Of a DNA stretch of 27,391 bases, positions 11,724-26,546 are shown piece after piece. This stretch comes from a virus. The number at the start of each line of letters is the position of its first letter. Position 1 is the first letter of the stretch. The stretch lies in IMG/VR virus record IMGVR_UViG_3300034072_001381, positions 1 through 27,391 of that record; one strand, 5' to 3'. Under the pieces are notes generated by a model. The model did no database searches and had not been told where the DNA came from. It saw only the letters and a list, made by a program, of their open reading frames with translations. The translations under genes were made by a program, and so were the position numbers.

Positions 11724-11724
11724 A

Positions 11725-14150: not shown

Positions 14151-14174
14151 TTTTAATATTTATTTGTATATAAT
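14151..14174 (+). promoter_or_regulatory. Phage promoter for 14194 gene
   Basis: TTTTAATATT (14151-14160), 8 nt, TATAAT (14169-14174), overlapping the end of the previous operon. Confidence 0.72.
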
Positions 14175-14193
14175 AAAATAAAAAGGATTATAA

Positions 14194-14673
14194 ATGCAAA
14201 AATTTAGTGATTTTTTAGCTGAAATGGCAGGTAAAGACCCATTAAATATTAAATGGACTAAAAAACGTGAACTATGGTTGGGTAAATTTAATATCGAAGA
14301 AAATAAATTTATAATAAGAATTGAAAACTCAGATAGATATTGTGAAAAAATAAGTGTTTGGGAATTTGAATTTTCTAGAAACAATAAAACTTCTATGGTG
14401 AATGATTATAAATACCCTTATTTAGTTGTTCCAACAATCAAAAAAGCAATGGAAGATTTCTTAAAAGAGATTTCACCGGATGTTATAGGTTTTGTTGGGA
14501 ATAAAGATGATAAGGGCAGAGTAAAAATGTATGAGAAAAATGCAAAATATTATTCAGATAAATTTAATTATTCATTATTTTTAGATAAAAGTACGGAGTA
14601 TTATGCTTTTGTATTATATAAAGATAAAGAATTTGAAAAATGCGCGGAAGAACTTATTAAGGACAAAAGTTGA
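14194..14673 (+). CDS. Candidate capsid-targeted protein with T4-type leader (159 aa)
   Basis: The first ten residues, MQKFSDFLAE, follow the same plan as the T4 internal-protein leader MKTYQEFIAE: basic/polar start, aromatic at 4, acidic at 6, Phe-Leu/Ile at 7-8 and Glu at 10. They end at L-A-E, a possible prohead-protease (gp21) cleavage site. After cleavage about 149 residues would remain: strands with aromatic residues, then a helix around KKAMEDFLKEISPDVIGFVG and the segment KGRVKMYEKNAKYYSDKFNY. That tail resembles the R-x-x-x-Y helix of acetyltransferase-like folds, but the catalytic pattern is not complete. It may be a head-packaged protein; the body function is unknown. Confidence 0.75.
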   Translation: MQKFSDFLAEMAGKDPLNIKWTKKRELWLGKFNIEENKFIIRIENSDRYCEKISVWEFEFSRNNKTSMVNDYKYPYLVVPTIKKAMEDFLKEISPDVIGFVGNKDDKGRVKMYEKNAKYYSDKFNYSLFLDKSTEYYAFVLYKDKEFEKCAEELIKDKS

Positions 14674-14807
14674 TAATTTTTAAGTACATTATTCTAACTG
14701 TGTTACTTTTTATTTTAGTGAAATGTTTTCATATTATATTGCAATCAATTTCATATAGTGCTTGGGGAGATGTTTTTGGCGTATCAATTATAAGTATATT
14801 TTATTAA
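14670..14807 (+). CDS. Short hydrophobic ORF, TTG start (45 aa)
   Basis: A TTG at 14670 overlaps the upstream TGA and has AAGGA (14659-14663) at correct spacing. The frame runs to TAA 14805-14807. The product starts with a hydrophobic helix (IIFKYIILTVLLFILVKCF), so it would be a mini membrane protein. It fills the gap between 14194 and 14838. The unusual start codon and small size lower the confidence. Confidence 0.5.
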   Translation: MIIFKYIILTVLLFILVKCFHIILQSISYSAWGDVFGVSIISIFY

Positions 14808-14837
14808 TTATATTATTTATTATAAAAAGGAGAAAAA

Positions 14838-15047
14838 ATGAAAATTCTAAGTGAATTTATTAAAATAGCAATGACAATTTTATTGAGTACTGTTTTGGTA
14901 TTTAGTTCTTATATAATGTATATATCTATTGGTTATGCATTATGGTATGATACATTAACAATGTTTATTGTATCTATTGTTTTATTTGGTTTTATTGTTA
15001 GTTTTGGTAGCAATATTTGGTTTATAAAAAATTTAATTAAAGGATAA
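14838..15047 (+). CDS. Small two-TM membrane protein (69 aa)
   Basis: Two hydrophobic helices (about residues 9-33 and 41-62) are separated by a short WYDTLT loop. RBS AAAAGGAG (14825-14832). It is followed after 2 nt by the SPFH lipoprotein gene, with which it is translationally linked, so they may act together in the membrane. Confidence 0.72.
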   Translation: MKILSEFIKIAMTILLSTVLVFSSYIMYISIGYALWYDTLTMFIVSIVLFGFIVSFGSNIWFIKNLIKG

Positions 15048-15049
15048 AA

Positions 15050-15853
15050 ATGAAATATATAATTTTTGCAGTAATTTCTGCATTTATGTTTAGTGGTTGC
15101 ATAACACCGAGCTCGGTAGATGCAGGTGAAGAAGCAGTTCTTGTTAAGAAACCTTGGTTCTTTGGACATGGTGGTGTTGATCCGGAACCAGAAAAAACTG
15201 GTCTTGTTTGGACTGCATTTAGTACAGAAGTTATTAGAATAAATGTTAAACCATTTAATATTACAGAACCATTTGATGATTTAATTACATATGATAATAA
15301 CCCTGTTGATTTTGATATTCACTTAACATTTAAACACATTGAAGGCAAAACACCTATTCTTGTGGAAAAATTTGGAAATGATTGGTACCAAAATAAAGTT
15401 AGAGAACCATTAAAAAATTCTGTTAGGGAATTTACTAAAAATAATACTATGTTCCAAATGACCACTGATCCAAATGTTATTACAAAATTAGAAAATGTTG
15501 TTACAACAGAGGTTCAAAAATTCTTAAAAGATGAAGGAATTCCTACTGAATTGGCGAAGGTAACTGTTGGTAAGGTTAGCCCACCTCAAGCGGTAATTGA
15601 TAGTACTATTCAAACAGCAGTACAAAAACAAAATGTTAAAACTCAAGAAGAAAGAGTTAAAGCTGAGCAAAGTAGAGAATTGGCTGAAAAAGCAGCCGCA
15701 AATGCGGATAGGGCTTATATGCAAGCAATTAATATGAATGCTGAGCAATATTTAAAAATGAAAGAATTAGATAATCAAAAATTAGCAATTGAAAAAGGTT
15801 CAAATGTTAATATTATTATGGGTACTGGTATTCCTTTAATTCAAACAAAATAA
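15050..15853 (+). CDS. SPFH/Band 7-like lipoprotein
   Basis: The N-terminus is a lipoprotein signal with lipobox FSGC, so the mature protein would start at Cys17 and be lipid-anchored. Residues about 25-165 have the strand pattern of an SPFH (stomatin/prohibitin/HflKC) domain, including GLVWTAFSTEVIRINVKPF, PVDFDIHLTF and an amphipathic helix REPLKNSVREFT. A long charged helix follows (about 185-245, rich in Gln, Glu, Lys and Ala), as in prohibitin-type oligomers. Such proteins form large rings that organise membranes and regulate proteases. A phage copy facing the periplasm might alter the envelope or block superinfection (inference). It ends just before a new promoter. Confidence 0.75.
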   Translation: MKYIIFAVISAFMFSGCITPSSVDAGEEAVLVKKPWFFGHGGVDPEPEKTGLVWTAFSTEVIRINVKPFNITEPFDDLITYDNNPVDFDIHLTFKHIEGKTPILVEKFGNDWYQNKVREPLKNSVREFTKNNTMFQMTTDPNVITKLENVVTTEVQKFLKDEGIPTELAKVTVGKVSPPQAVIDSTIQTAVQKQNVKTQEERVKAEQSRELAEKAAANADRAYMQAINMNAEQYLKMKELDNQKLAIEKGSNVNIIMGTGIPLIQTK

Positions 15854-15872
15854 ATATCTGAATTTAATTTAG

Positions 15873-15896
15873 CTTTAATATTCTTTTATATATAAT
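15873..15896 (+). promoter_or_regulatory. Phage promoter for 15924 gene
   Basis: CTTTAATATT (15873-15882), 8 nt, TATAAT (15891-15896). The block from about 15862 to 15890 is nearly the same as that at 6992-7020. Confidence 0.82.
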
Positions 15897-15923
15897 ACAT
15901 TATATAAATTAAAAGGATATTAA

Positions 15924-16205
15924 ATGCTAAGTAATTCACAAAACAGAAACATTGGAAAATTAATTAAATTAGAAGAAAATGGTAAATACACAATTGGGTT
16001 TGGCAAAAAATTTAGTATAATTGGTTTTACTAAAAATAATGAAGTGATTTTAGATGTTATCGATACAGATAAGTATTACTACGAAGCTGGTTATCAAAAA
16101 ACAATGAAGAGAAAAATAAATCTAAAAACTATGTGTTTTAATTTTGAAAGAAAACTATTTAATATAGAAAATGTTCTTGGAGCGAAAGAACTTTTTAAAT
16201 TATAA
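15924..16205 (+). CDS. Basic hypothetical protein (93 aa)
   Basis: A basic small beta-rich protein: IGKLIKLEENGKYTIGFGKK resembles an SH3-like start, followed by further strands. RBS AAAAGGA. The stop region overlaps a late-promoter octamer at 16201. No family recognised. Confidence 0.65.
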   Translation: MLSNSQNRNIGKLIKLEENGKYTIGFGKKFSIIGFTKNNEVILDVIDTDKYYYEAGYQKTMKRKINLKTMCFNFERKLFNIENVLGAKELFKL

Positions 16206-16208
16206 ATA
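16201..16208 (+). promoter_or_regulatory. T4-type late promoter TATAAATA
   Basis: An exact TATAAATA octamer ending 18 nt before ATG 16226. It is one of five plus-strand copies in the window, all 17-21 nt upstream of a start codon, as expected for the gp55-type late sigma factor of T4-like phages. Confidence 0.72.
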
Positions 16209-16225
16209 ATTCAAAAAGGTTGGGA

Positions 16226-16861
16226 ATGCAAACATTTAGAGAATGGTTAAATGAAAATGAACAAAGAAATAAAGTAATAGATTTTAGAAATTTCTTTGAA
16301 TCAGAATTATCAGAATCGGTTATAAATAAGATAAAAAATCTTTATTATATTAAAGATCCAAATAAAATTGTTGATGAATTTAAAAAAATATTTGATATTG
16401 CAGATAATATTAAAATTTCAAAAATTAATATTGGTTGTGCTACAAATCCTAAAACAAAAGAAATTAAATATAGTACACTAAATTCTCTTATACATGAATT
16501 AATTCATTACTTGCAATTAAAAGCAGGTGTTGCAGAAGATATATATAAATTTCCTGATTTTACTGATTGTGCAATATTAAAATATATTTTACAACCATTA
16601 GAATTAAATACTTGGGCTATATCATTGGCAGCTGAATTACTACGAAAAGATATTTCTTTTCAAACAGCGGGTAGAAATAAGAGATTAAAACACTGTATAT
16701 ATTTATTAACACACAATATGAATTGTGGTGTGCAAAAGAAATATAAAGATAAACTATTAAAATTATCAAAACAGTATATGTTGATTGTCAAATCTTTAAG
16801 TAAAGATATAAATGAACATTATACAAAATATACTTCAGATGCATTTATACACATAATTTAA
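16226..16861 (+). CDS. Putative zinc metallopeptidase with T4-type capsid-targeting leader
   Basis: The likely start is ATG 16226 rather than the TTG at 16220, because AAAAAGG (16214-16219) then sits at normal spacing and the protein begins MQTFREWLNE. That is a ten-residue match in layout to the T4 capsid-targeting leader, ending at L-N-E. The 211-aa protein carries HELIH at 90-94, the HExxH zinc-binding/catalytic motif, inside a helix (NSLIHELIHYLQ). Glu126 (QPLELNTWA) is a candidate third ligand on a following helix, as in gluzincins. Together with the late promoter at 16201, this suggests a protease made late, packaged in the head and injected. Catalytic activity and packaging are both inference. 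Confidence 0.72.
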   Translation: MQTFREWLNENEQRNKVIDFRNFFESELSESVINKIKNLYYIKDPNKIVDEFKKIFDIADNIKISKINIGCATNPKTKEIKYSTLNSLIHELIHYLQLKAGVAEDIYKFPDFTDCAILKYILQPLELNTWAISLAAELLRKDISFQTAGRNKRLKHCIYLLTHNMNCGVQKKYKDKLLKLSKQYMLIVKSLSKDINEHYTKYTSDAFIHII

Positions 16862-17215
16862 AAATACTTAGTGGTGGAATTCATTAAAGACACAATGACG
16901 GTATGAAGTTATTCCTAAACTTCATTCATAGGTGGAAGTCCTATGACTAAGTAATACCGAGTCCGTTAATTCGGGTTAATAGCTATCCTGTTAAGTCAGG
17001 GTAAATTTACCAACGCTAAACCTCTACTTAGAAGTAAAATACTACTAAGAAACGTTTAGCTTTTCTTAAATAATTCATCAAAGCATTCTAGATTAGTACC
17101 GGAATGCTTTGATGAATTATTTGAATCTCAAAGTACTAAATCCGGGGGAGCCTGTGAAACTAGTTTTTGATAATAAGCTATAAAAAAACCCTTCATTCTG
17201 TGGAATGATAAAATT
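16862..17215 (+). ncRNA. Structured non-coding RNA segment, class unknown
   Basis: There is no gene in 434 bases between 16861 and 17296, but many helices. TACTTAGT (16865-16872) pairs with ACTAAGTA (16946-16953). It encloses ATGAAGTT/AACTTCAT (16903-16910 with 16918-16925) and CATAGG/CCTATG (16927-16932 with 16940-16945), forming a three-way junction. GCTAAAC (17015-17021) pairs with GTTTAGC (17054-17060). A perfect 21-bp hairpin follows (17068-17088 with 17102-17122, 13-nt loop). Part of its loop, GATTAGTAC, can pair with GTACTAAATC at 17133-17142, a possible pseudoknot. G and C are locally enriched compared with the genes. I tested it by eye against group I, group II, tmRNA and RNase P landmarks and found no match. 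Confidence 0.55.
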
Positions 17216-17246
17216 TTAAAGTTCGGATTTTTCAAATTTAATTAAA

Positions 17247-17270
17247 CTTTAATATACTCTATTATATAAT
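17247..17270 (+). promoter_or_regulatory. Phage promoter for 17296 operon
   Basis: CTTTAATATA (17247-17256), 8 nt, TATAAT (17265-17270), 25 nt before ATG 17296. Confidence 0.75.
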
Positions 17271-17295
17271 ACTATTAAATATAAAAGGAAATAAA

Positions 17296-17685
17296 ATGAT
17301 AAAATTCACAGATTTAACTGATGAACAATTTGAAGATTTTTTTTACTTTGGGTTTAATTTAACTCCAAAAGAAAGTGGATTATCAGGAGATATTTGGGTT
17401 ACAGCAAAACCCTTTTATGATGAAATCTCTGAACCATATATTGTAGTTTTTGATAAATTTGATTGGACTATTCGAAATCCAAATTATGTTCAAATTAGTA
17501 TTGAAGATGAACCAAAAATAATTGAAAGTAACAATTTTAAAATATCTGCTGAATTTTTTGATGAAATAAAAACATTTGTGAAAATAAATAAAGATCCGTT
17601 AATAAAACAATGGACTATGGAGTATGACACAAGAGATTTTAATAGAAATAAAATAAAATATCATAAGGATAAGACACATGAATGA
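17296..17685 (+). CDS. Hypothetical protein, paralogue of 17678 (129 aa)
   Basis: The body aligns with the next gene: DIWVTAKPFYDEISEPYIVV here against YIWISTKQASHGPRIKVYDK there, then VQISIEDEPKI against VSISDKPNI, and the C-terminal helix IKTFVKINKDPLIKQWT against IFAFILKHKDDLIAYWN. So this is a tandem duplication of a compact beta-strand plus helix domain. The first 35 residues are acidic/aromatic and unlike the leader of the 17678 gene. Function unknown. The start is ATG 17296 with AAAAGGA. Confidence 0.7.
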   Translation: MIKFTDLTDEQFEDFFYFGFNLTPKESGLSGDIWVTAKPFYDEISEPYIVVFDKFDWTIRNPNYVQISIEDEPKIIESNNFKISAEFFDEIKTFVKINKDPLIKQWTMEYDTRDFNRNKIKYHKDKTHE

Positions 17686-18010
17686 ATTTAGAGAATATTT
17701 AAGAAGCGCAGAAATAAATGAGATGGCGCCAAATTATTCACCGGATAAAACAGGGTTAAATGAATATATTTGGATATCAACAAAACAAGCTTCGCACGGC
17801 CCGAGAATTAAAGTTTATGATAAACCAAATGGTAAAAATTTTTCTGTTTCAATTTCGGATAAACCCAATATTGTTGCAGGAGATTGTTTTGTTAATTCGA
17901 AAGAATTAAAAAGAATATTTGCATTTATTTTAAAACATAAAGATGATTTAATAGCGTATTGGAATAGTGAATTAACTACCGATGAACTTGAACACAATCT
18001 TTTTGATTAA
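17678..18010 (+). CDS. Hypothetical protein with possible virion leader, paralogue of 17296 (110 aa)
   Basis: Overlaps the previous gene by 8 nt. The N-terminus MNEFREYLRSAEINEMAPNY is like the capsid-targeting leaders elsewhere in the window, with I-N-E at 13-15 as a possible prohead-protease site and a flexible Pro-containing stretch behind it. The remaining body is the same domain as in 17296 (strand IWIST, motif HGPRIKVYDKPNG, helix LIAYWNSE). One copy with and one without a leader suggests that one product is packaged and the other acts during infection (inference). Confidence 0.7.
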   Translation: MNEFREYLRSAEINEMAPNYSPDKTGLNEYIWISTKQASHGPRIKVYDKPNGKNFSVSISDKPNIVAGDCFVNSKELKRIFAFILKHKDDLIAYWNSELTTDELEHNLFD

Positions 18011-18040
18011 TTTCAGTTCTTTATTCAGAATTTAATATTA

Positions 18041-18064
18041 CTTTAAGTGATTTTTGTATATAAT
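18041..18064 (+). promoter_or_regulatory. Phage promoter for 18092 microORF
   Basis: CTTTAAGTGA (18041-18050), 8 nt, TATAAT (18059-18064). It is followed by the standard leader with AAAGGATATAAAATG. Confidence 0.78.
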
Positions 18065-18091
18065 TATAATATATAAATTAAAGGATATAAA

Positions 18092-18175
18092 ATGAAAATC
18101 ACGAAAAGAAAAATTTTAAAAACAATTGCAAGAATTGATAAATCAATTTATAAATTAGGTGAAAGAATTTTATAA
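18092..18175 (+). CDS. 27-aa basic microprotein
   Basis: ATG 18092 to TAA 18173-18175, with its own full promoter at 18041 and the standard RBS (AAAGGA, 18080-18085) used by larger genes of this phage. The product MKITKRKILKTIARIDKSIY followed by KLGERIL has nine Lys/Arg residues and would form an amphipathic helix. It is the only coding unit between 18010 and the tRNA promoter. It may be a real micropeptide, or a short leader ORF or degraded gene; conservation would decide. Confidence 0.55.
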   Translation: MKITKRKILKTIARIDKSIYKLGERIL

Positions 18176-18215
18176 TTCTTTCTATTTTAATAAAGAATTA
18201 ATATTTTATATATAT

Positions 18216-18221
18216 TATAAT
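18216..18221 (+). promoter_or_regulatory. Promoter for tRNA cluster
   Basis: AATTAATATT at 18196-18205 and TATAAT at 18216-18221, in TATATATTATAATAC. It is close to the recurring promoter but with a 10-nt spacer. Transcription would begin near 18228, just before the helix that closes the first tRNA-like fold. Confidence 0.6.
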
Positions 18222-18234
18222 ACTATTAATAAAC

Positions 18235-18362
18235 AAATTGCTTATAAATTATTTAGTGATTGGCTGAGAAGGGTTAAAGCAATCGGTGTACACGATGCAT
18301 AGAAATATAGAAATATACAACTGGTTTGATTCCAGTATTACTAAATAATTTATAAGCAATTT
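18235..18362 (+). tRNA. tRNA-Tyr(GTA)-like fold closed by an extra 19-bp helix
   Basis: The body 18254-18344 folds as a class II tRNA: acceptor TAGTGAT/ATTACTA, a 3-bp D stem with a GG-containing loop, an anticodon stem of about 4 bp with loop GTGTACA (anticodon GTA, Tyr), a TATA-GAAA-TATA variable arm and a perfect T arm ACTGG-TTTGATT-CCAGT. Odd points: residue 37 is C, residue 32 is G, and no CCA is encoded, although the five other tRNAs all encode it. Beyond the acceptor, bases 18235-18253 pair perfectly with 18344-18362, giving one continuous helix of 26 bp. It could be a tRNA that needs unusual processing, or a tRNA mimic. Confidence 0.6.
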
Positions 18363-18389
18363 ATTATTTAAAAATAAGTTGTTATTCGC

Positions 18390-18466
18390 GGGCAAGTAAC
18401 ATAGTGGTCTAATGTACCCGACTCATAATCGGATTATCGTGTGTTCAAATCACACCTTGCCCACCA
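18390..18466 (+). tRNA. tRNA-Met(CAT), or Ile2 if lysidine-modified
   Basis: Perfect acceptor GGGCAAG/CTTGCCC with A73 and encoded CCA. D stem ACAT/ATGT with a GG-containing loop, anticodon loop CTCATAA (CAT) and T arm GTGTG-TTCAAAT-CACAC. The paired first acceptor base makes initiator tRNA unlikely. Whether it reads AUG or AUA cannot be told from sequence alone. Confidence 0.9.
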
Positions 18467-18469
18467 AAT

Positions 18470-18557
18470 GGATAGTTGGTAGAGTGGTTTATTACATCTG
18501 TTTGCTAAACAGATGCTGAGAAATCAGCCGCAGGTTCAAATCCTGTGCTATCCGCCA
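18470..18557 (+). tRNA. tRNA-Ser(GCT)
   Basis: Class II tRNA: acceptor GGATAGT/GCTATCC, G73, encoded CCA, anticodon loop TTGCTAA (GCT) on a strong stem, a long variable arm GCTGA-GAAA-TCAGC, and T arm with TTCAAAT. It lies 3 nt after the previous tRNA. It reads the AGU/AGC serine codons. Confidence 0.92.
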
Positions 18558-18566
18558 TTTATTAAT

Positions 18567-18642
18567 GCTTGCATAGCTCCAATGGTAGAGCAATTCCATG
18601 GTAAGGAAGAGGTTGTTGGTTTGAATCCAACTGTGAGCACCA
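18567..18642 (+). tRNA. tRNA-Thr(GGT)
   Basis: Acceptor GCTTGCA/TGTGAGC with two wobbles, A73, encoded CCA. D stem GCTC/GAGC, anticodon loop ATGGTAA (GGT), T arm GTTGG-TTTGAAT-CCAAC. The last A of CCA is also the first base of the next long hairpin. Confidence 0.9.
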
Positions 18643-19235
18643 TAAACATAGCTAAAAGTTAAAAATATGTTTAGTTTTTAGCTGTGTTTATTTAAAGTGA
18701 TAAGTAAATAAACCAGTAAAAGATTAAATTTTGCATATTATCTAAAGCTTATGTGTAATCTTTAGAACTAAGTGAATAGGTTAATTCACATTTTCTTTGA
18801 AGAGAAATTTGGTTTAACAACGGAATAAATTAGGCAAATATTCTGAGAACTTTATTTATTGAAGTTAAAAGTTTCTTGTAAATCTTCCCTTGTTTTAAAG
18901 TATTTAGCTGCAGACAATGAATATTTTTAAAATCAAAAGACGCATCGGTGTTGGCTTGGATGGTCTATAGCCGTAAAACTAGACAAGATTGGTGTGATGG
19001 TTAAACAGGTCTCCAGCCAAACTGAGAGGTGAAAATCCTCTCATTTCTGAAGATTAAGGAATATATTTTCAAAAATATTTTCTCTAGTCTTCACCCAACT
19101 AGCGTTTTACAGATAATCGTAAATGTTCTGTCAGATGGAAGTAAGAATTGCCGTACTCTGCTAAAGTAAAATAATTCTAGAGATAAGTGCGGGGTTGAGT
19201 GAACTTATCTCAAATTTTATAAAAGTTTATATAAA
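18643..19235 (+). ncRNA. Large structured non-coding RNA between tRNAs
   Basis: About 600 nt without a gene, folding into many helices. A 16-bp stem (18642-18657 with 18676-18691) directly follows tRNA-Thr. Others: AAAGATTA/TAATCTTT (18719-18726, 18756-18763); GTGAAT/ATTCAC (18772-18777, 18784-18789); TTGGCT-GGA/TCC-AGCCAA (18951-18960, 19012-19020); GTCTA/TAGAC (18963-18967, 18980-18984); GAGAGG/CCTCTC (19024-19029, 19037-19042); GAAGATT/AGTCTTC (19049-19055, 19086-19092); and GAGATAAGT/ACTTATCTC (19180-19188, 19203-19211). A long-range pair GTAAAAC/GTTTTAC (18973-18979, 19104-19110) would make a pseudoknot. Size and placement among phage tRNAs recall the GOLLD and ROOL classes, but I cannot confirm membership. 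Confidence 0.6.
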
Positions 19236-19258
19236 ATTAATAACTTTTAGTATATAAT
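19234..19258 (+). promoter_or_regulatory. Promoter for tRNA-Gln/Asn unit
   Basis: TTAATAAC, 8 nt, TATAAT (19253-19258) inside AGTATATAATA. It lies 14 nt before tRNA-Gln. It separates the large RNA from the next transcript. Confidence 0.7.
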
Positions 19259-19272
19259 ATACATAATAAAAA

Positions 19273-19346
19273 TGGGATATCATCTAGTGGTAGGACATCT
19301 GCTTTTGGCGCAGAGAACTCATGTTCGAATCCTGATATCCCATCCA
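19273..19346 (+). tRNA. tRNA-Gln(TTG)
   Basis: Acceptor TGGGATA/TATCCCA starting with a U-A pair, as in bacterial tRNA-Gln, then T73 and encoded CCA. Short D stem TCT/GGA, anticodon loop TTTTGGC (TTG) on TCTGC/GCAGA, T loop TTCGAAT with one stem mismatch. T at position 73 is unusual for Gln (G in E. coli). Confidence 0.85.
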
Positions 19347-19350
19347 AAAT

Positions 19351-19424
19351 TCCCTTGTAGCTTGAAGGTCAAGCAACACCCTGTTAAGGTGAAGTTGATG
19401 GTTCGATTCCATCCGAGGGAGCCA
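19351..19424 (+). tRNA. tRNA-Asn(GTT)
   Basis: Acceptor TCCCTTG/CGAGGGA, G73, encoded CCA. D stem GCTT/AAGC, anticodon loop CTGTTAA (GTT), T arm GATGG-TTCGATT-CCATC. It lies 4 nt after tRNA-Gln. Confidence 0.92.
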
Positions 19425-19823
19425 CTTAAAATTGTTTTCTACACAGTTTATAATCTATTATTGAAAAGAAGAAACTTATACCGATGTTTTGAAACAGATT
19501 TTCATTGGTTAAGATACATTGTATCAATAAAGCTCTTTACAATTAAAAATATCCAGCCAAGGGTAACAAATTATACTAGCATGAAAGCAAGTTATATTTT
19601 AATAAAAATATGTTTACTCTAAAGTTAAAAGATATAAAATTATAAAGATCTAAATTAATAAACTACTAAACTACTAAAGATTTAAAGCAAAAAGATTTAT
19701 AAAATCCAACAACAAAGGATTAATAGTTCTATAAGTACTATGTTCTATCCTGTTGGCTAATATTAGATCATAAATTGTGTAGAGAATACTCTAAATTTAA
19801 AATTATAAAGATAAAGGATAATT
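19425..19823 (+). ncRNA. Structured leader or non-coding RNA between tRNA-Asn and 19824
   Basis: About 400 nt with no plausible gene and no promoter of the usual type before the next ATG, so it is probably transcribed from 19253 through the tRNAs. A clear stacked hairpin lies at 19706-19756: CCAAC/GTTGG, then AGGAT/ATCCT, then ATAGT/ACTAT, with an internal bulge and a 9-nt loop. Smaller hairpins include GATAC/GTATC at 19513-19525 and AGAG/CTCT near 19781-19792. It could be a second part of the large RNA locus or a 5' leader controlling the coiled-coil gene. Confidence 0.45.
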
Positions 19824-20468
19824 ATGTCAAATCAAACAAACACAAAAGAATTTACACTTACAAGAGCATTAGTTGAATTAAAATTATATGATTCAAAAAT
19901 TGAAAAAGCTATCAAGGAATTAAAACCTGTTTCTTATGCAATTAATAAAATTGTAGTTGATTATAGACAAACTAAAGAAGAATTTTTAGATAATTATAAA
20001 GCTCAAATGCAAAGTGTTTCAGATTTAAGAAAAAATAAAACAGTTCTTAAAAATGCATTAATGAAAGCAAATGCCGAAACAATTGTTAAAATTGGTGATA
20101 AAGAATACACAATTCTTGAAGCTCTAAATAGAAAAAATGATATTAGAACTGAACAGCTGTTAATTTCACAATTAAAAAATCATTTAAATAATGCTATCGC
20201 GAGAACAGAAAACATCAAAAATGATATTGAAGCAAATATTGAAAGAACAATTAATTCAAGAAGTTCAAGTTCAAGTAATCAATCAAAAGATTATGTTCAA
20301 ACAATTAGAGATTCTTATAAAGATCAAATGCCTGAATTAGTAAATGCAGATGTTATTGAAAAATTAATCACTGAAAAAGAAGCAGAAATTACAGAATTTA
20401 TTGCAGAAGTTGATTTTGCTTTAAGCGAAATTAATGCAATTACAAAAATTAAGGTTCAATTAGCTTAG
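19824..20468 (+). CDS. Coiled-coil phage protein of unknown function (214 aa)
   Basis: Nearly all-helical with two long helical blocks (residues 10-75 and 95-145), a Ser-rich linker (SRSSSSSNQSKD, about 149-160) and a C-terminal helix. The segments TRALVELKLYDSKIEKAIK and IVKIGDKEYTILEALNRKND give the layout of a small helical protein family I associate with large tailed phages (similar to DIP1984-like proteins); that link is from memory. RBS AAAGGATAATT before ATG 19824. It has an unusually long leader behind two tRNAs. The codon usage looks regular, which suggests strong expression. Confidence 0.75.
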   Translation: MSNQTNTKEFTLTRALVELKLYDSKIEKAIKELKPVSYAINKIVVDYRQTKEEFLDNYKAQMQSVSDLRKNKTVLKNALMKANAETIVKIGDKEYTILEALNRKNDIRTEQLLISQLKNHLNNAIARTENIKNDIEANIERTINSRSSSSSNQSKDYVQTIRDSYKDQMPELVNADVIEKLITEKEAEITEFIAEVDFALSEINAITKIKVQLA

Positions 20469-20483
20469 TGCCGAACCTTAATT
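20447..20483 (+). terminator. Hairpin across the stop codon of 19824
   Basis: The 11-bp stem AATTAAGGTTC (20447-20457) / GAACCTTAATT (20473-20483) with a 15-nt loop that contains the end of the gene. A T-rich stretch (AACTTTTAAT) follows, but the T-tract is weak. It may be a terminator or an mRNA 3'-end stabiliser. Confidence 0.5.
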
Positions 20484-20486
20484 AAC

Positions 20487-20510
20487 TTTTAATATTCTTT
20501 AGTATATAAT
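20487..20510 (+). promoter_or_regulatory. Phage promoter for 20536 operon
   Basis: TTTTAATATT (20487-20496), 8 nt, TATAAT (20505-20510), directly after the hairpin. Confidence 0.8.
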
Positions 20511-20535
20511 ATATTATTAAAACAAAAGGATATAA

Positions 20536-20829
20536 ATGAAATATAATATAAGAGCACTTTTTAGTAGAAAATATAGATTGGTTCAAGTTGGGTTGATTGA
20601 TTGGGAATTATATCAAGAAGATCGAAAAATTTTAGATTTTGAAGCTAAATATGAAAATGCTATATTAGAAGATATTTACAACGGATTGGAAAGAGAATTA
20701 AAATATCATATTTCTAATATTGAAGAAAATGATGAAGATTATTTTTATGATATGACAGAAGAAGAACAATTATTCAAAAAGACTTTTTTCCTAAAAGAAC
20801 TAAAAGATATTTATGATTGGTTGATATAA
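20536..20829 (+). CDS. Acidic hypothetical protein (97 aa)
   Basis: Starts with a basic/aromatic segment (RALFSRKYRLVQVGLIDWEL) and continues as acidic helices (ISNIEENDEDYFYDMTEEEQ). It is coupled to the NUDIX gene by a TAATG overlap. No family recognised. Confidence 0.65.
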   Translation: MKYNIRALFSRKYRLVQVGLIDWELYQEDRKILDFEAKYENAILEDIYNGLERELKYHISNIEENDEDYFYDMTEEEQLFKKTFFLKELKDIYDWLI

Positions 20830-21236
20830 TGAAAGAATATAGTTATGGAATTTGTCCATATTATAAAGTTCAAGATGAAATTTATATTATGTTAATACAG
20901 CCAAAAGGGCATGTTGAATGGGGTTTTGCAAAAGGTAAAATAGAAGAAAATGAATCCAGAGAAGAATGTGCAGTTAGAGAATTTTATGAAGAAACTGGAT
21001 TAACAATTAATAAAGCAGTATTAGAAAATTATTTTGAACAAAAGAATAAAAGAAAGGATGTTGGAATATTTTTAGTTAATATTTTTAATATGAATAAAGA
21101 TGATAAGATTAATCTACAATCAAAAGAAGTACATAAAATTAAATTATTTAATATAACTGATAAAATTGATATTTATAAAAATCAAGAAATTATATTAAAT
21201 GATATAATTAAATATTTAAGTAATATAAGGGGTTAA
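20829..21236 (+). CDS. NUDIX hydrolase
   Basis: Hydrolyses a nucleoside diphosphate linked to another moiety. Counting from ATG 20829, residues 36-58 match the Nudix box (G-x5-E-x7-R-E-x2-E-E-x-G-x) exactly, with Gly36, Glu42, Arg50, Glu51, Glu54, Glu55 and Gly57. The 135-aa length fits a single-domain enzyme. Substrate candidates include dinucleoside polyphosphates, NAD-type molecules, ADP-ribose, damaged nucleotides or capped RNA; the sequence does not decide. Phage T4 also carries a Nudix enzyme (NudE.1), so the presence is not odd. An in-frame ATG at 20817 exists inside the upstream gene, but the TAATG junction favours 20829. Confidence 0.9.
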   Translation: MKEYSYGICPYYKVQDEIYIMLIQPKGHVEWGFAKGKIEENESREECAVREFYEETGLTINKAVLENYFEQKNKRKDVGIFLVNIFNMNKDDKINLQSKEVHKIKLFNITDKIDIYKNQEIILNDIIKYLSNIRG

Positions 21237-21244
21237 CTAACCCC
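21229..21244. terminator. Hairpin between convergent genes
   Basis: GGGGTT/AACCCC (21229-21234, 21239-21244) with a 4-nt loop covers both stop codons of the convergent genes, which abut with no gap (TAA 21234-21236 on plus, complement of CTA 21237-21239 on minus). It has no strong T-tract on either side, so it would be a modest bidirectional terminator. Confidence 0.55.
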
Positions 21245-21455
21245 CTATAATTAATTGAGCTGCTGCAATCAATAATGAAATAACAGTAGGTATACCTATT
21301 GTTAATGAAATTACTTTTGTTTTTGTCTCTATTACTAAACCTCGTATATCTTCCACTTTAACTTTAAGCTTATCCAAAGAGTCTTTAAGATCTTTTATTT
21401 CCTCAATAACATAAATTCTGTATGCTGCCCAGTCATTTGATTCATCGTAGTTCAT
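21237..21455 (-). CDS. Small coiled-coil protein with C-terminal TM segment (72 aa)
   Basis: An N-terminal hydrophilic part, a heptad-like helix (IKDLKDSLDKLKVKVEDIRG, residues 20-39) and a C-terminal hydrophobic segment (about 50-70, ISLTIGIPTVISLLIAAAQL). This layout resembles small tail-anchored phage proteins such as XhlA-type holin accessory proteins. That is the best guess, but the sequence evidence is only the layout. It lies downstream of the PAS gene on the same strand, 11 nt apart. Confidence 0.7.
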   Translation of the reverse strand: MNYDESNDWAAYRIYVIEEIKDLKDSLDKLKVKVEDIRGLVIETKTKVISLTIGIPTVISLLIAAAQLIIGG

Positions 21456-21466
21456 AATATACCTCG

Positions 21467-22120
21467 TTAAGCTTCAAACTTATATTTATCTAACTCTCGT
21501 AATATAGTATCTTTCATACCAGTATTACATGTGTTTTTGCACTTTGCAATATCAAGAACAGCATTTTTAATAGACATGTACCACTCAGTTACATCTCTTC
21601 CTGTTCCAACAGTCCCTATAACCTCTTTACCTCTGTATAATGGTGCTTTATAAACCTCTAGATAAACTTCTTTACCATTAATTTTACCCCACTCTAAAAA
21701 TCTACCTTTTTCAAGATTTTCAAGAACTACTAAATCAGAGTTACCGCATACTTCACCAAATGTGTGATTTTCAGCACCAACTTTTTTTCTGCATTTTTCA
21801 GCAATTTCAACATCAGTTTTACCAATTATATTTCTATAACTCATTCCGTAGAATAACCCATTTAAAATACCTGTATTTACATATATGTATTTACCGTTAA
21901 TATCTTTTGCCCACATCATATCGGGAATGGTATCACCTATTGCTAGAACCAAGTTTTTATATTCTTCTAGCTGTAATCTTGATTTTTTTAGTTCATCTTC
22001 AAGAACTTGTGTTCTTGCTTGATCTTTTTCAATCTCTTCTAAGATTTTTTCGAGTTTGTGTTCAATTTCACCATAAATTAAAGAGCCAAGAAAATCACTA
22101 ATATTTTTTAATAAGTTCAT
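21467..22120 (-). CDS. PAS-domain sensor-like protein without output domain
   Basis: An N-terminal helical, coiled-coil part (about residues 18-56, EHKLEKILEEIEKDQARTQV) is followed by one PAS domain (about 58-185): MMWAKDINGKYIYVN, then IIGKTDVEIAEKC, and the closing GTVGTGRDVTEWY. No kinase, cyclase or HTH follows. The C-tail has C-K-N-T-C, possibly redox-active or metal-binding. PAS domains sense small ligands, redox or oxygen and mediate dimerisation. This and 21237 are the only minus-strand genes in the window and look like an acquired cassette. Start ATG 22120, RBS AAGG 6 nt upstream on the minus strand. Confidence 0.85.
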   Translation of the reverse strand: MNLLKNISDFLGSLIYGEIEHKLEKILEEIEKDQARTQVLEDELKKSRLQLEEYKNLVLAIGDTIPDMMWAKDINGKYIYVNTGILNGLFYGMSYRNIIGKTDVEIAEKCRKKVGAENHTFGEVCGNSDLVVLENLEKGRFLEWGKINGKEVYLEVYKAPLYRGKEVIGTVGTGRDVTEWYMSIKNAVLDIAKCKNTCNTGMKDTILRELDKYKFEA

Positions 22121-22182
22121 TTACCAACCTTAATTAATTTTAGTTCACGCGATTTTTCGAAAATATTTCAAATACAATTTAT

Positions 22183-22227
22183 ATAAAATACTTAAAATAT
22201 AAATGCATTTTAAGTATTTTATTTTTT
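22183..22227 (+). terminator. Long perfect hairpin with T-tract
   Basis: A 16-bp stem (22183-22198 with 22207-22222, core AAAATACTTAAAAT) with an 8-nt loop and following Ts at 22223-22227, so a terminator reading rightward. It lies in the leader of the minus-strand PAS gene, so it may also act there as an mRNA structure. Confidence 0.65.
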
Positions 22228-22245
22228 AGTAAATAGTATTTTTAA

Positions 22246-22253
22246 TATTTATA
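22246..22253 (-). promoter_or_regulatory. T4-type late promoter on minus strand
   Basis: TATTTATA on plus reads TATAAATA on minus. It faces the PAS gene but lies about 126 nt from its start, farther than the plus-strand copies. It is back-to-back with the octamer at 22263. Confidence 0.45.
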
Positions 22254-22262
22254 TTTTTGATT

Positions 22263-22270
22263 TATAAATA
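22263..22270 (+). promoter_or_regulatory. T4-type late promoter TATAAATA
   Basis: Exact octamer ending 19 nt before ATG 22289, with AAAAGGGGGG at 22275-22284 between them as RBS. Confidence 0.7.
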
Positions 22271-22288
22271 TTTTAAAAGGGGGGCATT

Positions 22289-22579
22289 ATGCTTTATTAC
22301 ATTTTTATAGGATTGTTTATAAATCTTATATGTTTTATAATTTTTACAATAATTTGTTCAATTGTTATAATTAATTCAAATATAGATAAACTTAAGAATG
22401 AAATGCAAGAAGAAAAATATTTTTACGGTACAGTATTTTATTATATTATACCGTTATATGGTTTATTTTATCTTATTATTCTTATAAAAAATTGTTTTTC
22501 AGGCTTATCATTCATAAAAACTATTCAAAAAACGGATATACAAACAAACATTTTTAAATTAAAGAGGAAAAGAAAATGA
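22289..22579 (+). CDS. Membrane protein, two TM segments (96 aa)
   Basis: Two hydrophobic spans (about residues 2-29 and 48-66) and a basic tail ending KLKRKRK. It starts behind a late promoter and an unusually G-rich RBS. A late, small, two-span protein would fit a holin or envelope protein, without direct proof. It overlaps the next gene by ATGA. Confidence 0.7.
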   Translation: MLYYIFIGLFINLICFIIFTIICSIVIINSNIDKLKNEMQEEKYFYGTVFYYIIPLYGLFYLIILIKNCFSGLSFIKTIQKTDIQTNIFKLKRKRK

Positions 22580-23229
22580 GTTTTATAACTATAGATGCAT
22601 ATTACGATGTTAATTTTTATAATCAGTGCAAAGAAGCGTTAAAAAATAATTCAATTAAATTTACTGAATTCATTGAGATTAAATCTCCTTATAGATGGTT
22701 TTTTAAACTTGAAGACACAATTAAACCTATTATGATAAATTATGATGAAATAAACAAGAATAGATTTATAGTACGAAAAGTTCAAGCATTAAGACCAAAT
22801 GAAGAATATTTATTACAAAGAAGAGGAAGTACAGAAGGTTCTAATATAACAAAATATATTTATAATGATGCTTTTGAAGATTCTAAAGATTATGGTGTTT
22901 TTATCAATATTAGTTCTAGGGATGAATTATTAAGAATTTCAAAAGAATATCCTGGTAAGATTTATTATCTAGGAAAATATTATGGTAATAGATTTAGAGT
23001 TTGTTTAGTTAACAATTCTATGATAAAGAATTATATAAATCCATCTCAAATTTTATTAGAAAAAACTCCAGATATGAAAGAACCCGGTAGATTTGAAGCA
23101 GAATTTAATTATAAAGTTCTAAAACACAATGACTATATTTATAAAACTACAGAAACTATTTATGCACAAAATGGGAGTATTATTAGGCCAAAAGTATTTG
23201 ATACAACAAATACAAAATATTTTATTTAA
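22576..23229 (+). CDS. Hypothetical protein (217 aa)
   Basis: A mixed alpha/beta protein with many Tyr and Asn: ITIDAYYDVNFYNQCKEAL at the start, a central NISSRDELLRISKEYPGKIY and a beta-rich C-third. No catalytic motif recognised. It starts in the ATGA overlap and is followed by 23240 after 10 nt. Confidence 0.65.
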   Translation: MSFITIDAYYDVNFYNQCKEALKNNSIKFTEFIEIKSPYRWFFKLEDTIKPIMINYDEINKNRFIVRKVQALRPNEEYLLQRRGSTEGSNITKYIYNDAFEDSKDYGVFINISSRDELLRISKEYPGKIYYLGKYYGNRFRVCLVNNSMIKNYINPSQILLEKTPDMKEPGRFEAEFNYKVLKHNDYIYKTTETIYAQNGSIIRPKVFDTTNTKYFI

Positions 23230-23239
23230 AAGGAAGTAT

Positions 23240-23629
23240 TTGAAAAATTTACAAAATTACACAACAGAGAAATTAAAGGATGCTGCTTTATTGGATATAA
23301 AACAAACTTGTATGAAATATTTACACAATAAGAATTTAATTTCAAAAATTTCTGATGAAGAAATAGTTATTTGTTATGATATGATTTTAAATGAATATAA
23401 TGCTATATCCGATTTAAAGAAAGGTTTGAAAATTAAAACATATTTTTCGCCCTTTTATGAAATATATTTTAATTTGGATAATATGATTATGAAAGATCAT
23501 TTATTACAAAAAGAAGAAAAAATTTCATTTCTAGAATTAACAAAAGAAATAAATTATCTAGAAGATATTTTAGCATTTTGTTATGGAGTACTGCATAAAA
23601 TTATAGAAGAAAGAAAAATTCTTCTATAA
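23240..23629 (+). CDS. Helical hypothetical protein, TTG start (129 aa)
   Basis: The reading frame is open from 23129, but the first 110 bases overlap the end of 22576 in another frame. TTG 23240 follows AAAAGGAAG (23228-23236) at ideal spacing and gives a clean start (LKNLQNYTTEKLKDAALLDI). The protein is largely helical with hydrophobic heptads in the C-half (LELTKEINYLEDILAFCYGV). Function unknown. Confidence 0.6.
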   Translation: MKNLQNYTTEKLKDAALLDIKQTCMKYLHNKNLISKISDEEIVICYDMILNEYNAISDLKKGLKIKTYFSPFYEIYFNLDNMIMKDHLLQKEEKISFLELTKEINYLEDILAFCYGVLHKIIEERKILL

Positions 23630-23640
23630 TTTAATCTTCA

Positions 23641-23664
23641 AATTAATATTTTTTAGTATATAAT
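23641..23664 (+). promoter_or_regulatory. Phage promoter for helicase gene
   Basis: AATTAATATT (23641-23650), 8 nt, TATAAT (23659-23664), 28 nt before ATG 23693. Confidence 0.78.
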
Positions 23665-23692
23665 CTCTTATTAAACAAAACAAAGGATAAAA

Positions 23693-25282
23693 ATGACTGA
23701 TATGGAACTATATGAACCTATATTGCTTAAAAACTTAATAAAGAATCCTGAATTCTTTTCAAAATCTCTAAGTATTATAGAACCTAAATATTTTAAAAGA
23801 ATAGGAAATCAAGAACTATTTAAACTTATAAAAAATTATTACACTACTTACAAAAATATACCAAATTCAACAGAATTGATTGCTTCAGTTAAAAATATTC
23901 AAAATGCCGAAATTAGAAATAGTATTATAGATGCTTCAAAAGAAATGCAATCAGCTGAATTATGTGGAACAGAATATCTTTTAGATGAAACAGTTAAATG
24001 GGTAAAAGATTCATTATATCTTGAAGCGCTTATGGTTGGTTCAGATGGCCTTCAAAAGAAAAATGATGATATGAAATTAAAAGCAAAACAAATTCTGGAT
24101 GAAATGGCTAAAGTTAGTATTGATTCTGATTTGGGATTATCTTTTGATGATATTGACGAAATGATCAAATACTACCAAGAAAGAAACATTGGTATTAAAA
24201 CTCAACATAAAGAACTAAATAAAAGATTAGGAAGTGGATTTTTACCAGGAACATTAAATATAATCTTAAGTCAATCTGGAGGGGGTAAATCTTTATTAAT
24301 GACAGATTTTATTTCAGGTATGATTAAAGAAAAGAAAAATATTCTTTTAGTTTCATTAGAAATGTCTGATAAAGAAATTATGAAAAGAGTTCACGCAAAT
24401 GCAATGAATTTACCAATAAATTCTTTAGTTCATTTATCTAAAACTGACGGTGAAAAGAAAAGATTGCTTGAAGAAAATCCAAATTTATCAATTATAGATA
24501 AAGAACAAGTTCTAGAAGCATATAATAAAATGAAAGCATCAGGTAACTGTGGACAATTTTTTGTTAAGGATTATCCAGCTGGTTCATTTAGTGCATTACA
24601 ATTGGAAGCTTTAGTTGAATCATATAGAATAGAAAAAAATATAACATTTGATATTATTTTTGTGGATTATCTTGGTATTATGAAATCTGATTTAATTTCA
24701 CCAAGTGCGGGTTTATATAGTTATTTAAAAAGTATTGCTGAGGAAGTTAGAGCAAGTGCTAAAAAATTAAAAGTTCCAATTATTTCAGCTTCACAATTAA
24801 ATAGGGGAGCTACAGGAAGTACAGAAGCAGATAATAGTAATGTTTCGGATTCAATGGGTTCTGTAATGACTGCCGACCTGTTATTATTCTTATTACAAAC
24901 ACCTGAAATGAAAGAAAATAAAGAAATTATTTTAAAATGTACTAAAAATAGATATACTGGTAGAACAGATACATGGATGATGAATATTGACTATGAACAT
25001 ATGAGATTTGCCGACATGATTACAGAAAATTCTTTAGAACACACAAAACTTTTAGAAGAATTAGTAAAAGAAAAAGATCCGACAGATGCCTTAGATTTTG
25101 GGATAAATATACCCAATGTTGTAACAGCGGATAAAATTAAAACAGCGGAAGAATTTGCAATAAATGAAATAAAAGAAATAGCAAAAACAGATGCAGAAAT
25201 ATTAAAAGCTGATTCAGAAAAGAAAAAAGACCCATTATCTGATAGTACAGAGGATTTGTTTAGAGAATTAGGAATTTTATAA
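23693..25282 (+). CDS. dnaB: DnaB-type replicative DNA helicase (T4 gp41-like)
   Basis: Ring helicase that unwinds DNA at the fork in the 5'-3' direction, fuelled by ATP or GTP. Residues 10-140 form the helical N-terminal domain. The RecA-like motor begins with GFLPGTLNIILSQSGGGKS, giving Walker A at 193-200 with Lys199. The H1a segment is LLVSLEMSDKEI (218-229), Walker B is IIFVDYLG (321-328) and the sensor stretch is PIISASQLNRGA (362-373). An arginine-rich KCTKNRYTGRTD lies farther on. At 529 aa it is of gp41 size or slightly longer, with an acidic C-terminal tail (DSTEDLFRELGIL) that may bind primase or a loader. It stands alone behind its own promoter. Confidence 0.93.
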   Translation: MTDMELYEPILLKNLIKNPEFFSKSLSIIEPKYFKRIGNQELFKLIKNYYTTYKNIPNSTELIASVKNIQNAEIRNSIIDASKEMQSAELCGTEYLLDETVKWVKDSLYLEALMVGSDGLQKKNDDMKLKAKQILDEMAKVSIDSDLGLSFDDIDEMIKYYQERNIGIKTQHKELNKRLGSGFLPGTLNIILSQSGGGKSLLMTDFISGMIKEKKNILLVSLEMSDKEIMKRVHANAMNLPINSLVHLSKTDGEKKRLLEENPNLSIIDKEQVLEAYNKMKASGNCGQFFVKDYPAGSFSALQLEALVESYRIEKNITFDIIFVDYLGIMKSDLISPSAGLYSYLKSIAEEVRASAKKLKVPIISASQLNRGATGSTEADNSNVSDSMGSVMTADLLLFLLQTPEMKENKEIILKCTKNRYTGRTDTWMMNIDYEHMRFADMITENSLEHTKLLEELVKEKDPTDALDFGINIPNVVTADKIKTAEEFAINEIKEIAKTDAEILKADSEKKKDPLSDSTEDLFRELGIL

Positions 25283-25299
25283 TTTCTTTTTCTTTTAAA

Positions 25300-25307
25300 T
25301 ATAAATA
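25300..25307 (+). promoter_or_regulatory. T4-type late promoter TATAAATA
   Basis: Exact octamer ending 21 nt before ATG 25328. The whole stretch from the octamer through TGGAGAATTAAAATG is identical to the one in front of 25917. Confidence 0.75.
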
Positions 25308-25327
25308 ATATAAAATGGAGAATTAAA

Positions 25328-25885
25328 ATGAAATTTAGTGATTGGTTAATCATAAATGAAGTTTTTGATTATATTTCCAATTATAAAGAAGTAAATAAAA
25401 GTGTTTATATAGAAAATTGGATTAATATGTTAAAAAAACATAACCCAGATTCATTAAAACAAAAGGGCATTGATTTAGAAAGAACTGTTTATGATAATCA
25501 CGGTCCTAGAGTACATTATTATATTTATGATAATTATTTAATTTTTTATGGTAAATTTAAAAGTTCAAATAAATATGAAATACATTTTTGGGATATTAAA
25601 AATTTGGAATATGAAAATAATGTTGGCAAATCTGGATTTAATAAGATATTTAGTGCGATAATGAGCATCATAAAAGATAAACATTTAAAAACCAATGCTA
25701 GATTATATATGAAACATGATATTAAAGAACGGAGAGAATTTTATCAAAAAATTATAACAAAAATATTTAAAGATAAAAATATTAATTGGAAATGTGAAAT
25801 TATAGGTGAAAATGTTATAATATATCCTGGTGAAGATGAATTAAAAGAATCTTCTAGTAAAATTATGTTTCCAAACACCTATTAA
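25328..25885 (+). CDS. Candidate capsid-targeted late protein (185 aa)
   Basis: The N-terminus MKFSDWLIINE fits the T4 internal-protein leader pattern and ends at I-N-E, a possible prohead-protease site, leaving about 174 residues. The body has a strand region with HGPRVHYYIYDNYLIFYGKF, whose HGPR also occurs in the 17678 protein, then a helix and the segment NARLYMKHDIKERREFYQKI, similar in layout to KGRVKMYEKNAKYYSDKF of the 14194 protein. It is under a late promoter with GGAG as RBS. Activity unknown; a packaged, injected protein is the working idea. Confidence 0.75.
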   Translation: MKFSDWLIINEVFDYISNYKEVNKSVYIENWINMLKKHNPDSLKQKGIDLERTVYDNHGPRVHYYIYDNYLIFYGKFKSSNKYEIHFWDIKNLEYENNVGKSGFNKIFSAIMSIIKDKHLKTNARLYMKHDIKERREFYQKIITKIFKDKNINWKCEIIGENVIIYPGEDELKESSSKIMFPNTY

Positions 25886-25888
25886 ATA

Positions 25889-25896
25889 TATAAATA
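25889..25896 (+). promoter_or_regulatory. T4-type late promoter TATAAATA
   Basis: Exact octamer ending 21 nt before ATG 25917, duplicate of the control region at 25300. Confidence 0.75.
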
Positions 25897-25916
25897 ATAT
25901 AAAATGGAGAATTAAA

Positions 25917-26546
25917 ATGAAATTTAGAAACTTCTTATTAGATTTGGACCCTTCACTATTATTAGAAGGTGATGAATCAATTATGGATAATACAGCGATG
26001 TACTTAGAAATAAAAAATATTTTGGAACATATGTCTGATGATGAAATTGATGAATTTGGTGCTTTTTTAGCAGTGGAATTTTTTGATACACCTGAAGAAG
26101 ATATTAATGATATTTATTTTGCTATTGATAATGTTCTTGAAATGATTGGTGAATTAGGTGAAGAAAATTATAGTACTATTTTGGAGTTATTATTACCTGA
26201 CGAATTTGAAGGAAGCGATGACACTGAAACAGAATATATTGAATTAGATTATGATGATTCAACTGATTCAGGAGAATTGGAAGAAGTAGTTGAGGGTGTT
26301 TCAAGAGTTATGAAAGTATCAAAATTAAATAAAAAGAAAAGAAAATTCTTTAAAAAATCAGCTGCTATTTTAAGAAAAGAAAGAGCAGAAAGAGTAAAAC
26401 AAAATAGATTAACTAAAGCATCAAGAAGAGCTTATAGAAGAGCAAATGTTGCTAAATTAAAGGCTTATCAAAAAAGTAGAAAAACTTTTATTAAAAAAGG
26501 AAGACATTTTGTTAAAATCAGAAGAAAGGGTGGAGCAGAAGCTTAA
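25917..26546 (+). CDS. Late acidic/basic two-part protein, possible prohead core or packaged DNA-binding protein
   Basis: The N-terminal two thirds (about residues 1-128) are strongly acidic and helical. The last 75-80 residues are extremely Lys/Arg-rich (KLNKKKRKFFKKSAAILRKE and onward to the end), suited to bind DNA. The start MKFRNFLLDLDPSLLLEGDE resembles the other leaders and has L-L-E at 15-17. Late promoter, good RBS and a strong terminator directly behind suggest a highly expressed structural gene. T4 prohead core proteins also combine acidic and basic parts, but I see no definite match. Confidence 0.72.
   Translation: MKFRNFLLDLDPSLLLEGDESIMDNTAMYLEIKNILEHMSDDEIDEFGAFLAVEFFDTPEEDINDIYFAIDNVLEMIGELGEENYSTILELLLPDEFEGSDDTETEYIELDYDDSTDSGELEEVVEGVSRVMKVSKLNKKKRKFFKKSAAILRKERAERVKQNRLTKASRRAYRRANVAKLKAYQKSRKTFIKKGRHFVKIRRKGGAEA

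Follow-up and report, generated by a model that had tools for sequence, protein, structure and literature searches.

Short leaders of the T4 capsid-targeting type on five proteins of a T4-superfamily phage fragment, with signs that the leader is portable

Five proteins encoded by a virus fragment from IMG/VR (record IMGVR_UViG_3300034072_001381; 27,391 bases and 56 genes, here called the window) begin with short leaders that are probably capsid-targeting propeptides of the type known from phage T4. Their genes start at positions 14194, 16226, 17678, 25328 and 25917, all on the plus strand. In this reading, which we hold with good confidence, four of the proteins are cargo of the phage head, the fifth (25917) is a component of the head core, and the leader itself is portable. 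The internal proteins of T4 are known as diverse first-response anti-defence proteins, and their capsid targeting sequence was reportedly described by Mullaney and Black in 1996. That the internal proteins of T-even phages form a diverse set joined only by a targeting leader is established (PMC3012670). If sequence is enough to recognise such a leader in distant T4-type phages, the injected proteins of phages that have never been grown could be listed directly.

All five starts were confirmed, and each is an ATG with a Shine-Dalgarno-like sequence upstream. The leaders are MQKFSDFLAE (14194..14223) and MQTFREWLNE (16226..16255), both with a predicted cut after E10, MNEFREYLRSAEINE (17678..17722, predicted cut after E15), MKFSDWLIINE (25328..25360, after E11) and MKFRNFLLDLDPSLLLE (25917..25967, after E17). 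They have the form M-x(1-3)-F-x-x-[FWY]-L in common, and all five fit the ending at or near I/L-x-E that a previous sequence-only reading of this DNA had described. A search pattern consisting of the core M-x(1-3)-[FYW]-x-x-[FWY]-[LIVM] and a following [LIVM]-x-E by residue 20 matches 5 of the 56 window genes, where internal windows of these proteins would lead one to expect 0.03. Shuffling the residues of the N-termini gives an expectation of 0.22 (P=3e-6), permuting them by column gives 0.42 (P=8e-5), and none of 400 shuffles reached five matches. The similarity of the five leaders, also part of the sequence-only reading, thus lies far above chance.

The column permutation speaks to one rival explanation, that the N-termini resemble each other as a by-product of translation or composition, namely of AT-rich starts rich in lysine and phenylalanine behind a common ribosome-binding region, and that the resemblance serves no function in the protein. 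Two things agree with it: 25328 and 25917 have 11 coding nucleotides in common together with the block upstream, and Staphylococcus phage K has a mild excess of similar starts. Yet column-permuted N-termini keep the composition bias of each position and still yield 0.42 matches rather than five, and the [IL]-x-E ending is left unexplained. Moreover, the residues of the motif are those kept between orthologues. The window 25328 protein and its orthologue on the 6.5 kb contig L006 are 88% identical, yet of their leaders, MKFSDWLIINE in the window and MDSFRDWLVLNE on L006, just the residues M, F, D, W, L, N and E are the same. We consider the by-product explanation very improbable.

The bodies behind the leaders are another matter. 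No sequence similarity was found among the five, where the sequence-only reading had called the bodies unrelated or only partly related, and when the families of 25328 and 14194 were compared as profiles, the leader alone aligned. A sequence-profile test for a common origin of the bodies of 25328 and 14194 was negative.

The window phage is placed by its gp41-type DnaB-like replicative helicase (23693..25282, plus strand), which is closest to gp41 of six Vibrio phages (61-62% identity; pv27, phiTY18, phiKT1024, Va1 and two others), is 81% identical to that of contig L006 and 42% identical to those of CP220-type Campylobacter phages. At the nucleotide level, the window matched no phage record. 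The helicase assigns the phage to the T4 superfamily, beside the pv27/Va1 group and outside the well-studied genera. Comparisons were made with the complete genomes of pv27 (L008-L011), T4, the KVP40-type Va3, CP220 and phage K, with 100 kb of SPO1, and with the related viral contigs L001, L002, L003, L005 and L006.

The same five genes come first among the 56 when they are scored with a six-column weight matrix that was trained on the leaders of other phages; they reach 6.4-12.4 bits, with 14194 the best, and the sixth gene scores 3.7. Applied to T4, the matrix ranks IPI, IPII, IPIII and gp61.1 highest; IPI lies outside the training set, while gp61.1 is within it, so that its score is not independent. 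T4 gp61.1 (L015:18966-19130), a 54-residue protein of unknown function, itself starts with a textbook targeting leader, MKTFKEFIKE followed by D. Among controls without a T4-type head protease, the pattern matches 3 of 239 proteins in phage K and 0 of 133 in SPO1; the window exceeds these pooled controls at P=0.0013, and the contigs of its lineage (16/204 against 3/372) do so at P=1.3e-5. Across 35 leaders compared, the anchor F is present in 32, the next aromatic residue is F, Y or W, and L or I follows in all but one; the commonest endings are INE, LNE, LEE and LAE.

In the ten-residue leader of T4 IPIII, residues 4 and 7 serve targeting and residues 8 and 10 serve cutting (PMC9026906). The residues kept in all five window leaders are those at the positions equivalent to Y4 and F7 (targeting) and to I8 and E10 (processing). 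The protease that such leaders call for is present in relatives: pv27 encodes gp21 (21200-21898, PF03420, E=1.7e-24) together with gp22 (PF25623, 7e-30) and gp23 (PF07068, 4e-107), and CP220 has an annotated gp21. Both also encode leader proteins, six in CP220 and, in pv27, those at 20129 (between the tail tube gene and gp21), 125525, 126456 and 174109. The gp23 of pv27 reads RLVNE followed by GTLSG, presumably near the expected processing site as judged by comparison with T4. The assignment to the T4 capsid-targeting type made in the sequence-only reading is therefore supported: the leader stands far above chance, recurs across the lineage and occurs with a gp21-type protease in the nearest complete relatives. 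On a further contig, G001, a leader protein that starts MKFKTFLEE (L035:634-1017) adjoins a gp23/gp24-like gene, and its C-terminal half is shared with the pv27 leader protein CDS0327 (174109-174294).

From these features we infer the following course, in which core binding, cleavage, packaging, injection and the activity of each protein are our proposals. The leader would bind the growing prohead core through its aromatic and aliphatic residues, namely F and, three and four positions later, F/W/Y and L. Once the shell closes, a gp21-type protease would cut behind [IL]-x-E and free the mature protein inside the head. The proteins at 14194, 16226, 17678 and 25328 would then enter the cell with the DNA and, like T4 IPI, target host factors or defences, and 25917 would use the same signal as a structural component of the core.

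This division modifies what had been proposed before. The sequence-only reading saw in all five genes an arsenal of injected effectors, a claim that is not supported in that form: packaging, cleavage and injection are not evident from the window, and 25917 reads as a head-core component. Its product (209 residues, 25917..26546) has an acidic half followed by a basic half, with charges of -35 and then +30, compared with -13 and +22 in T4 gp68. Its family lies downstream of gp41 in L001, L002, L003, L005, L006 and pv27, always with the leader, and a TATAAAT-type late box precedes it in the window, L001, L002, L003, L006 and pv27. Because it is conserved, is divided into acidic and basic halves, stands beside gp41 in every relative with sequence there and has a conserved late promoter, 25917 is most likely a structural component of the head core and a functional counterpart of gp68. 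Homology to gp68 was also considered and has no sequence support; a hidden Markov model (HMM) of the 25917 family finds none of the T4 proteins at E<=1.

What holds for 25917 might hold for all five. The leaders could be docking peptides of head-assembly proteins only, so that all five proteins would bind the prohead core and help in building the head or setting its size, and none would be injected. The features of 25917 just described (conservation, acidic and basic halves, late promoter) fit this explanation well, pv27 CDS0028 lies inside a head-gene cluster, and T4 IPIII also affects head assembly (PMC9026906). However, assembly proteins are usually conserved, whereas most relatives lack a counterpart of four of the five, and the bodies of these four are unrelated, some of them enzyme- or toxin-like. 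A ligase-like leader protein of L001 and L003, described below, also has orthologues without a leader, whose function does not depend on a head. We regard a purely structural role for all five as unlikely, and prefer to read 14194, 16226, 17678 and 25328 as, most likely, variable cargo. Searches of viral contigs by peptide patterns found no relatives of the first three and one relative, on L006, of the fourth.

The product of 14194 (159 residues, 14194..14673) consists of the leader and a DUF6934-like domain that it has in common with proteins of KVP40-type Vibrio phages. Its body is related to the Va3_149 group by tblastn, and an HMM built from three Va3 proteins alone matches it at E=2.3e-7, from residue 3 onward. 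Va3_149 matches PF22028 (DUF6934) at 3.7e-5, below the cut-off, and 49 Vibrio phage records match a Va3 member of the family. Two of the KVP40-type proteins carry leaders of their own, MKFSEYQRLNE and MKFSEYQNELTE. In the 306-residue Va3_149 (L013:2488-3408), a leader-like stretch, KKTWREWLSSVNLTE, is internal and stands before the domain shared with 14194, which suggests a gp21 site that would release two proteins.

The product of 16226 (211 residues, 16226..16861; predicted isoelectric point of the mature form, 9.2) contains a zincin-type HELIH motif at residues 90-94 (16493..16507), a candidate zinc-binding motif by its residues. There is an additional in-frame TTG two codons upstream of its start. 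No relatives of this protein were found, no Pfam, NCBIfam or PDB-sequence match convincingly assigned it to a peptidase family or fold, and its single-sequence structure model is unusable, with a predicted local distance difference test score (pLDDT) of 38. The product of 17678 (110 residues, 17678..18010) joins its leader to a DUF4160/DhiT-like domain; the matches are to PF13711 DUF4160 (E=3.4e-4, 21.2 bits, below the cut-off of 23) and to NF048015 toxin_DhiT (E=0.012, 16.2 bits, below the cut-off of 100). DhiT inhibits growth in Dickeya dadantii and Escherichia coli (PMC8198452). The product of 25328 (185 residues, 25328..25885; predicted mature isoelectric point, 9.1) is predicted to be of mixed alpha/beta structure. 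Its model, made from two sequences, has a pLDDT of 48, and its best structural matches (Z about 6-7) are a mixture of GNAT toxins and RNase E domains, which hints weakly at a GNAT-like fold.

The leader can also be separated from its bodies. L001 (at 18744) and L003 (at 17950) encode a ligase/nucleotidyltransferase-like protein of 502-503 residues; its cytidylyltransferase-like match is weak, and its KxDG motif may be read as ligase-like. These proteins start MNFVQYINE and MDFLRYLNE, each followed by GKEQLDISI, whereas leaderless orthologues start MSKQHLDISI (pv27) and MQKDQIDISI (CP220). Orthologues occur in 6 Vibrio and 15 Campylobacter phages (tblastn), and the matches listed begin at query residues 7-11, just past the leader. 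Similarly, pv27 CDS0243 carries a leader ahead of a phrog_6147 domain that is found in 412 phage records; most of the matches among those listed begin at residues 23-27, and the T4-type phage ECD7 has this domain by itself. The protein of 17678 has a leaderless homologue in LR745208, and within the window a leaderless paralogue (129 residues, 17296..17685, plus strand; BLASTP 32% identity over 98 columns, E=3e-10) overlaps its start. Furthermore, the residue after the predicted cut is methionine in 14194 and 17678, which would fit a leader placed in front of an older start codon (post hoc P about 0.003).

A further trace is an exact repeat of 40 nucleotides (family D7), which spans a TATAAATA box, the ribosome-binding site and the first 11 coding nucleotides of 25328 (25299..25338) and, in its second copy, of 25917 (25888..25927). 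The start of the L006 orthologue of 25328 differs from this block. Probably the 5' end of one of the two genes was copied onto the other. The leader thus appears to be a portable module that was gained by genes and copied between them, at least once with its promoter and ribosome-binding site. More tentatively, and with somewhat more doubt than confidence, we propose that it acts as a mobile export tag: ordinary phage enzymes and toxin-like domains that received it, along with its late promoter and ribosome-binding site, would change from cytoplasmic proteins to head cargo. The enzyme of L001 and L003 would then be a natural before-and-after pair, and the window phage would deliver its zincin-like and DUF4160/DhiT-like proteins. 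Orthologues with and without the leader make it testable whether the 8-9 added residues alone turn a cytoplasmic protein into a packaged one.

The TATAAATA boxes end 17, 20 and 20 nucleotides before the ATGs of 16226 (box at 16201..16208), 25328 and 25917. The earlier statement that three of the five genes stand behind late promoters thus keeps its three genes, and its distances of 18-21 nucleotides are corrected. The plus strand holds eight copies against 8.2 expected by chance, and on this count we rejected the boxes as proof of late expression. Four of the eight copies lie 17-20 nucleotides before a start, and three of these four precede leader genes (P=0.002). In pv27, about half of the structural and leader genes examined have the box within the 100 nucleotides upstream of them, and none of nine replication genes has it; for this reason we take it to be the late box of the lineage. 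For 16226, 25328 and 25917 the late-box reading is kept, on the strength of where the box lies and of its association with structural genes in pv27.

A different element precedes the remaining two genes. D1 is a 44-nucleotide repeat (like TTTAATTTAGCTTTAATATTCTTTTGTATATAATA) that contains TATATAAT, and each of its eight copies (3941, 6993, 11073, 11963, 14141, 15863, 17237 and 20477, within window positions 3941-20520) lies just upstream of a gene start. The copy at 14141..14184 (TTTAATTTAATTTTAATATTTATTTGTATATAATA..., 91% identical to the reference copy) stands upstream of 14194, and that at 17237..17280 upstream of the 17296-17678 pair; both are on the plus strand. D1 is probably an early or middle promoter, and because it precedes 14194 and the 17296-17678 pair instead, these are not clearly late genes. 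Such a promoter does not exclude packaging, and the internal proteins of T4 are also made before replication.

Several points weigh against the capsid-targeting reading. The late box covers three of the five genes only, leaving 14194 and 17678 without a late promoter. The training set of the weight matrix was picked with the same kind of pattern, so the matrix is not fully independent of it. In unrelated phages the pattern turns up at a rate of about 1%, and for that reason it cannot by itself identify cargo. The gp21-type protease, whose absence from the rest of the genome had been named as a refutation, is present in pv27 and annotated in CP220 but was not found in the 27 kb fragment, which has no head genes. 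It was likewise not found in six related contigs; all of these, like the window, are fragments, and the search's own control also went undetected, so its absence is not shown. As for virions, sodium dodecyl sulfate polyacrylamide gel electrophoresis of CP220 gave 11 major proteins, none recognisably a leader protein, with sequencing confined to excised bands (PMC2853527). In the proteome study of IBB_35, most of the proteins detected were inferred by the authors to be free of proteolytic modification; the same study lists 25 virion proteins without homology (PMC3322345).

Other features were seen along the way. About 18 mostly unrelated small proteins of pv27 end in [YFM][PA]E[YL][FL][IV] at the carboxyl terminus, or in close variants, against 0.5 expected; T4, Va3, CP220, phage K and SPO1 have 0-1. 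Examples are L009:18218-18514 (pv27) and L005:1206-2921, and the ending is weak in the window at 9333 and 10012. Because the codons vary and the bodies differ, it looks like a shared tag at the protein level. In one of several consecutive small open reading frames with this ending (L005:1394-1636), a stretch matches the N-terminal part of gp23 (PF07068, E=4.5e-12), a fragment of capsid protein within a small tagged protein. The window also encodes an RNase HII (10433-11071) and a Thg1-like tRNAHis guanylyltransferase (12258-13118, PF04446, E=4e-28). At 21237-22120, two genes on the minus strand oppose the general direction; one, at 21467-22120, encodes a PAS-domain protein (PF08448, E=1e-7), which we take to resemble Campylobacterota sensor proteins and thus to be a possible hint of the host, and a genome scan found no relative of it. 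The start of an IS605-type TnpB/OrfB gene lies at the window edge (26923-27390), downstream of 25917. Defence-gene models gave no match.

Among known systems, the closest is that of the T4 proteins IPI, IPII, IPIII and Alt (PMC9026906, PMC3012670), of which IPIII is required if the phage is to grow on a natural E. coli strain (PMC9391042). Like the window proteins, these have leaders of 9-20 residues with an aromatic residue at position 3 or 4, an aromatic-aliphatic pair three residues on, an [IL]-x-E cut site and unrelated bodies. The window proteins differ in that their bodies are unrelated to those of T4, two of the five genes stand behind a non-late element, the candidate cargo is HELIH-containing, DUF4160/DhiT-like and DUF6934-like, and their packaging is a prediction. 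The KVP40-type Va3 proteins have a body homologous to that of 14194 with a leader at the same place; unlike them, 14194 consists of a single such domain behind a canonical FLAE leader, while one Va3 member has the leader-like stretch internally, between two parts. T4 gp68 resembles 25917 in its acidic N-terminal and strongly basic C-terminal halves. In contrast to gp68, which lies between gp20 and gp21 and has no canonical leader, 25917 has one, stands beside gp41 and is without detectable homology to gp68. The ejection proteins of the giant phages SPN3US and phiKZ, like those proposed here, are injected proteins that are packaged by means of a propeptide and processed by a protease (PMC5694885), but their propeptides are mostly longer than 100 residues, the protease is distant and there is no common short leader. 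We found no paper mapping such leaders in T4-type phages of Vibrio or Campylobacter in a search that left most subscription journals outside its reach. What the window adds is thus a known targeting trick in a new lineage with new cargo, and the before-and-after enzyme pair is its most useful part.

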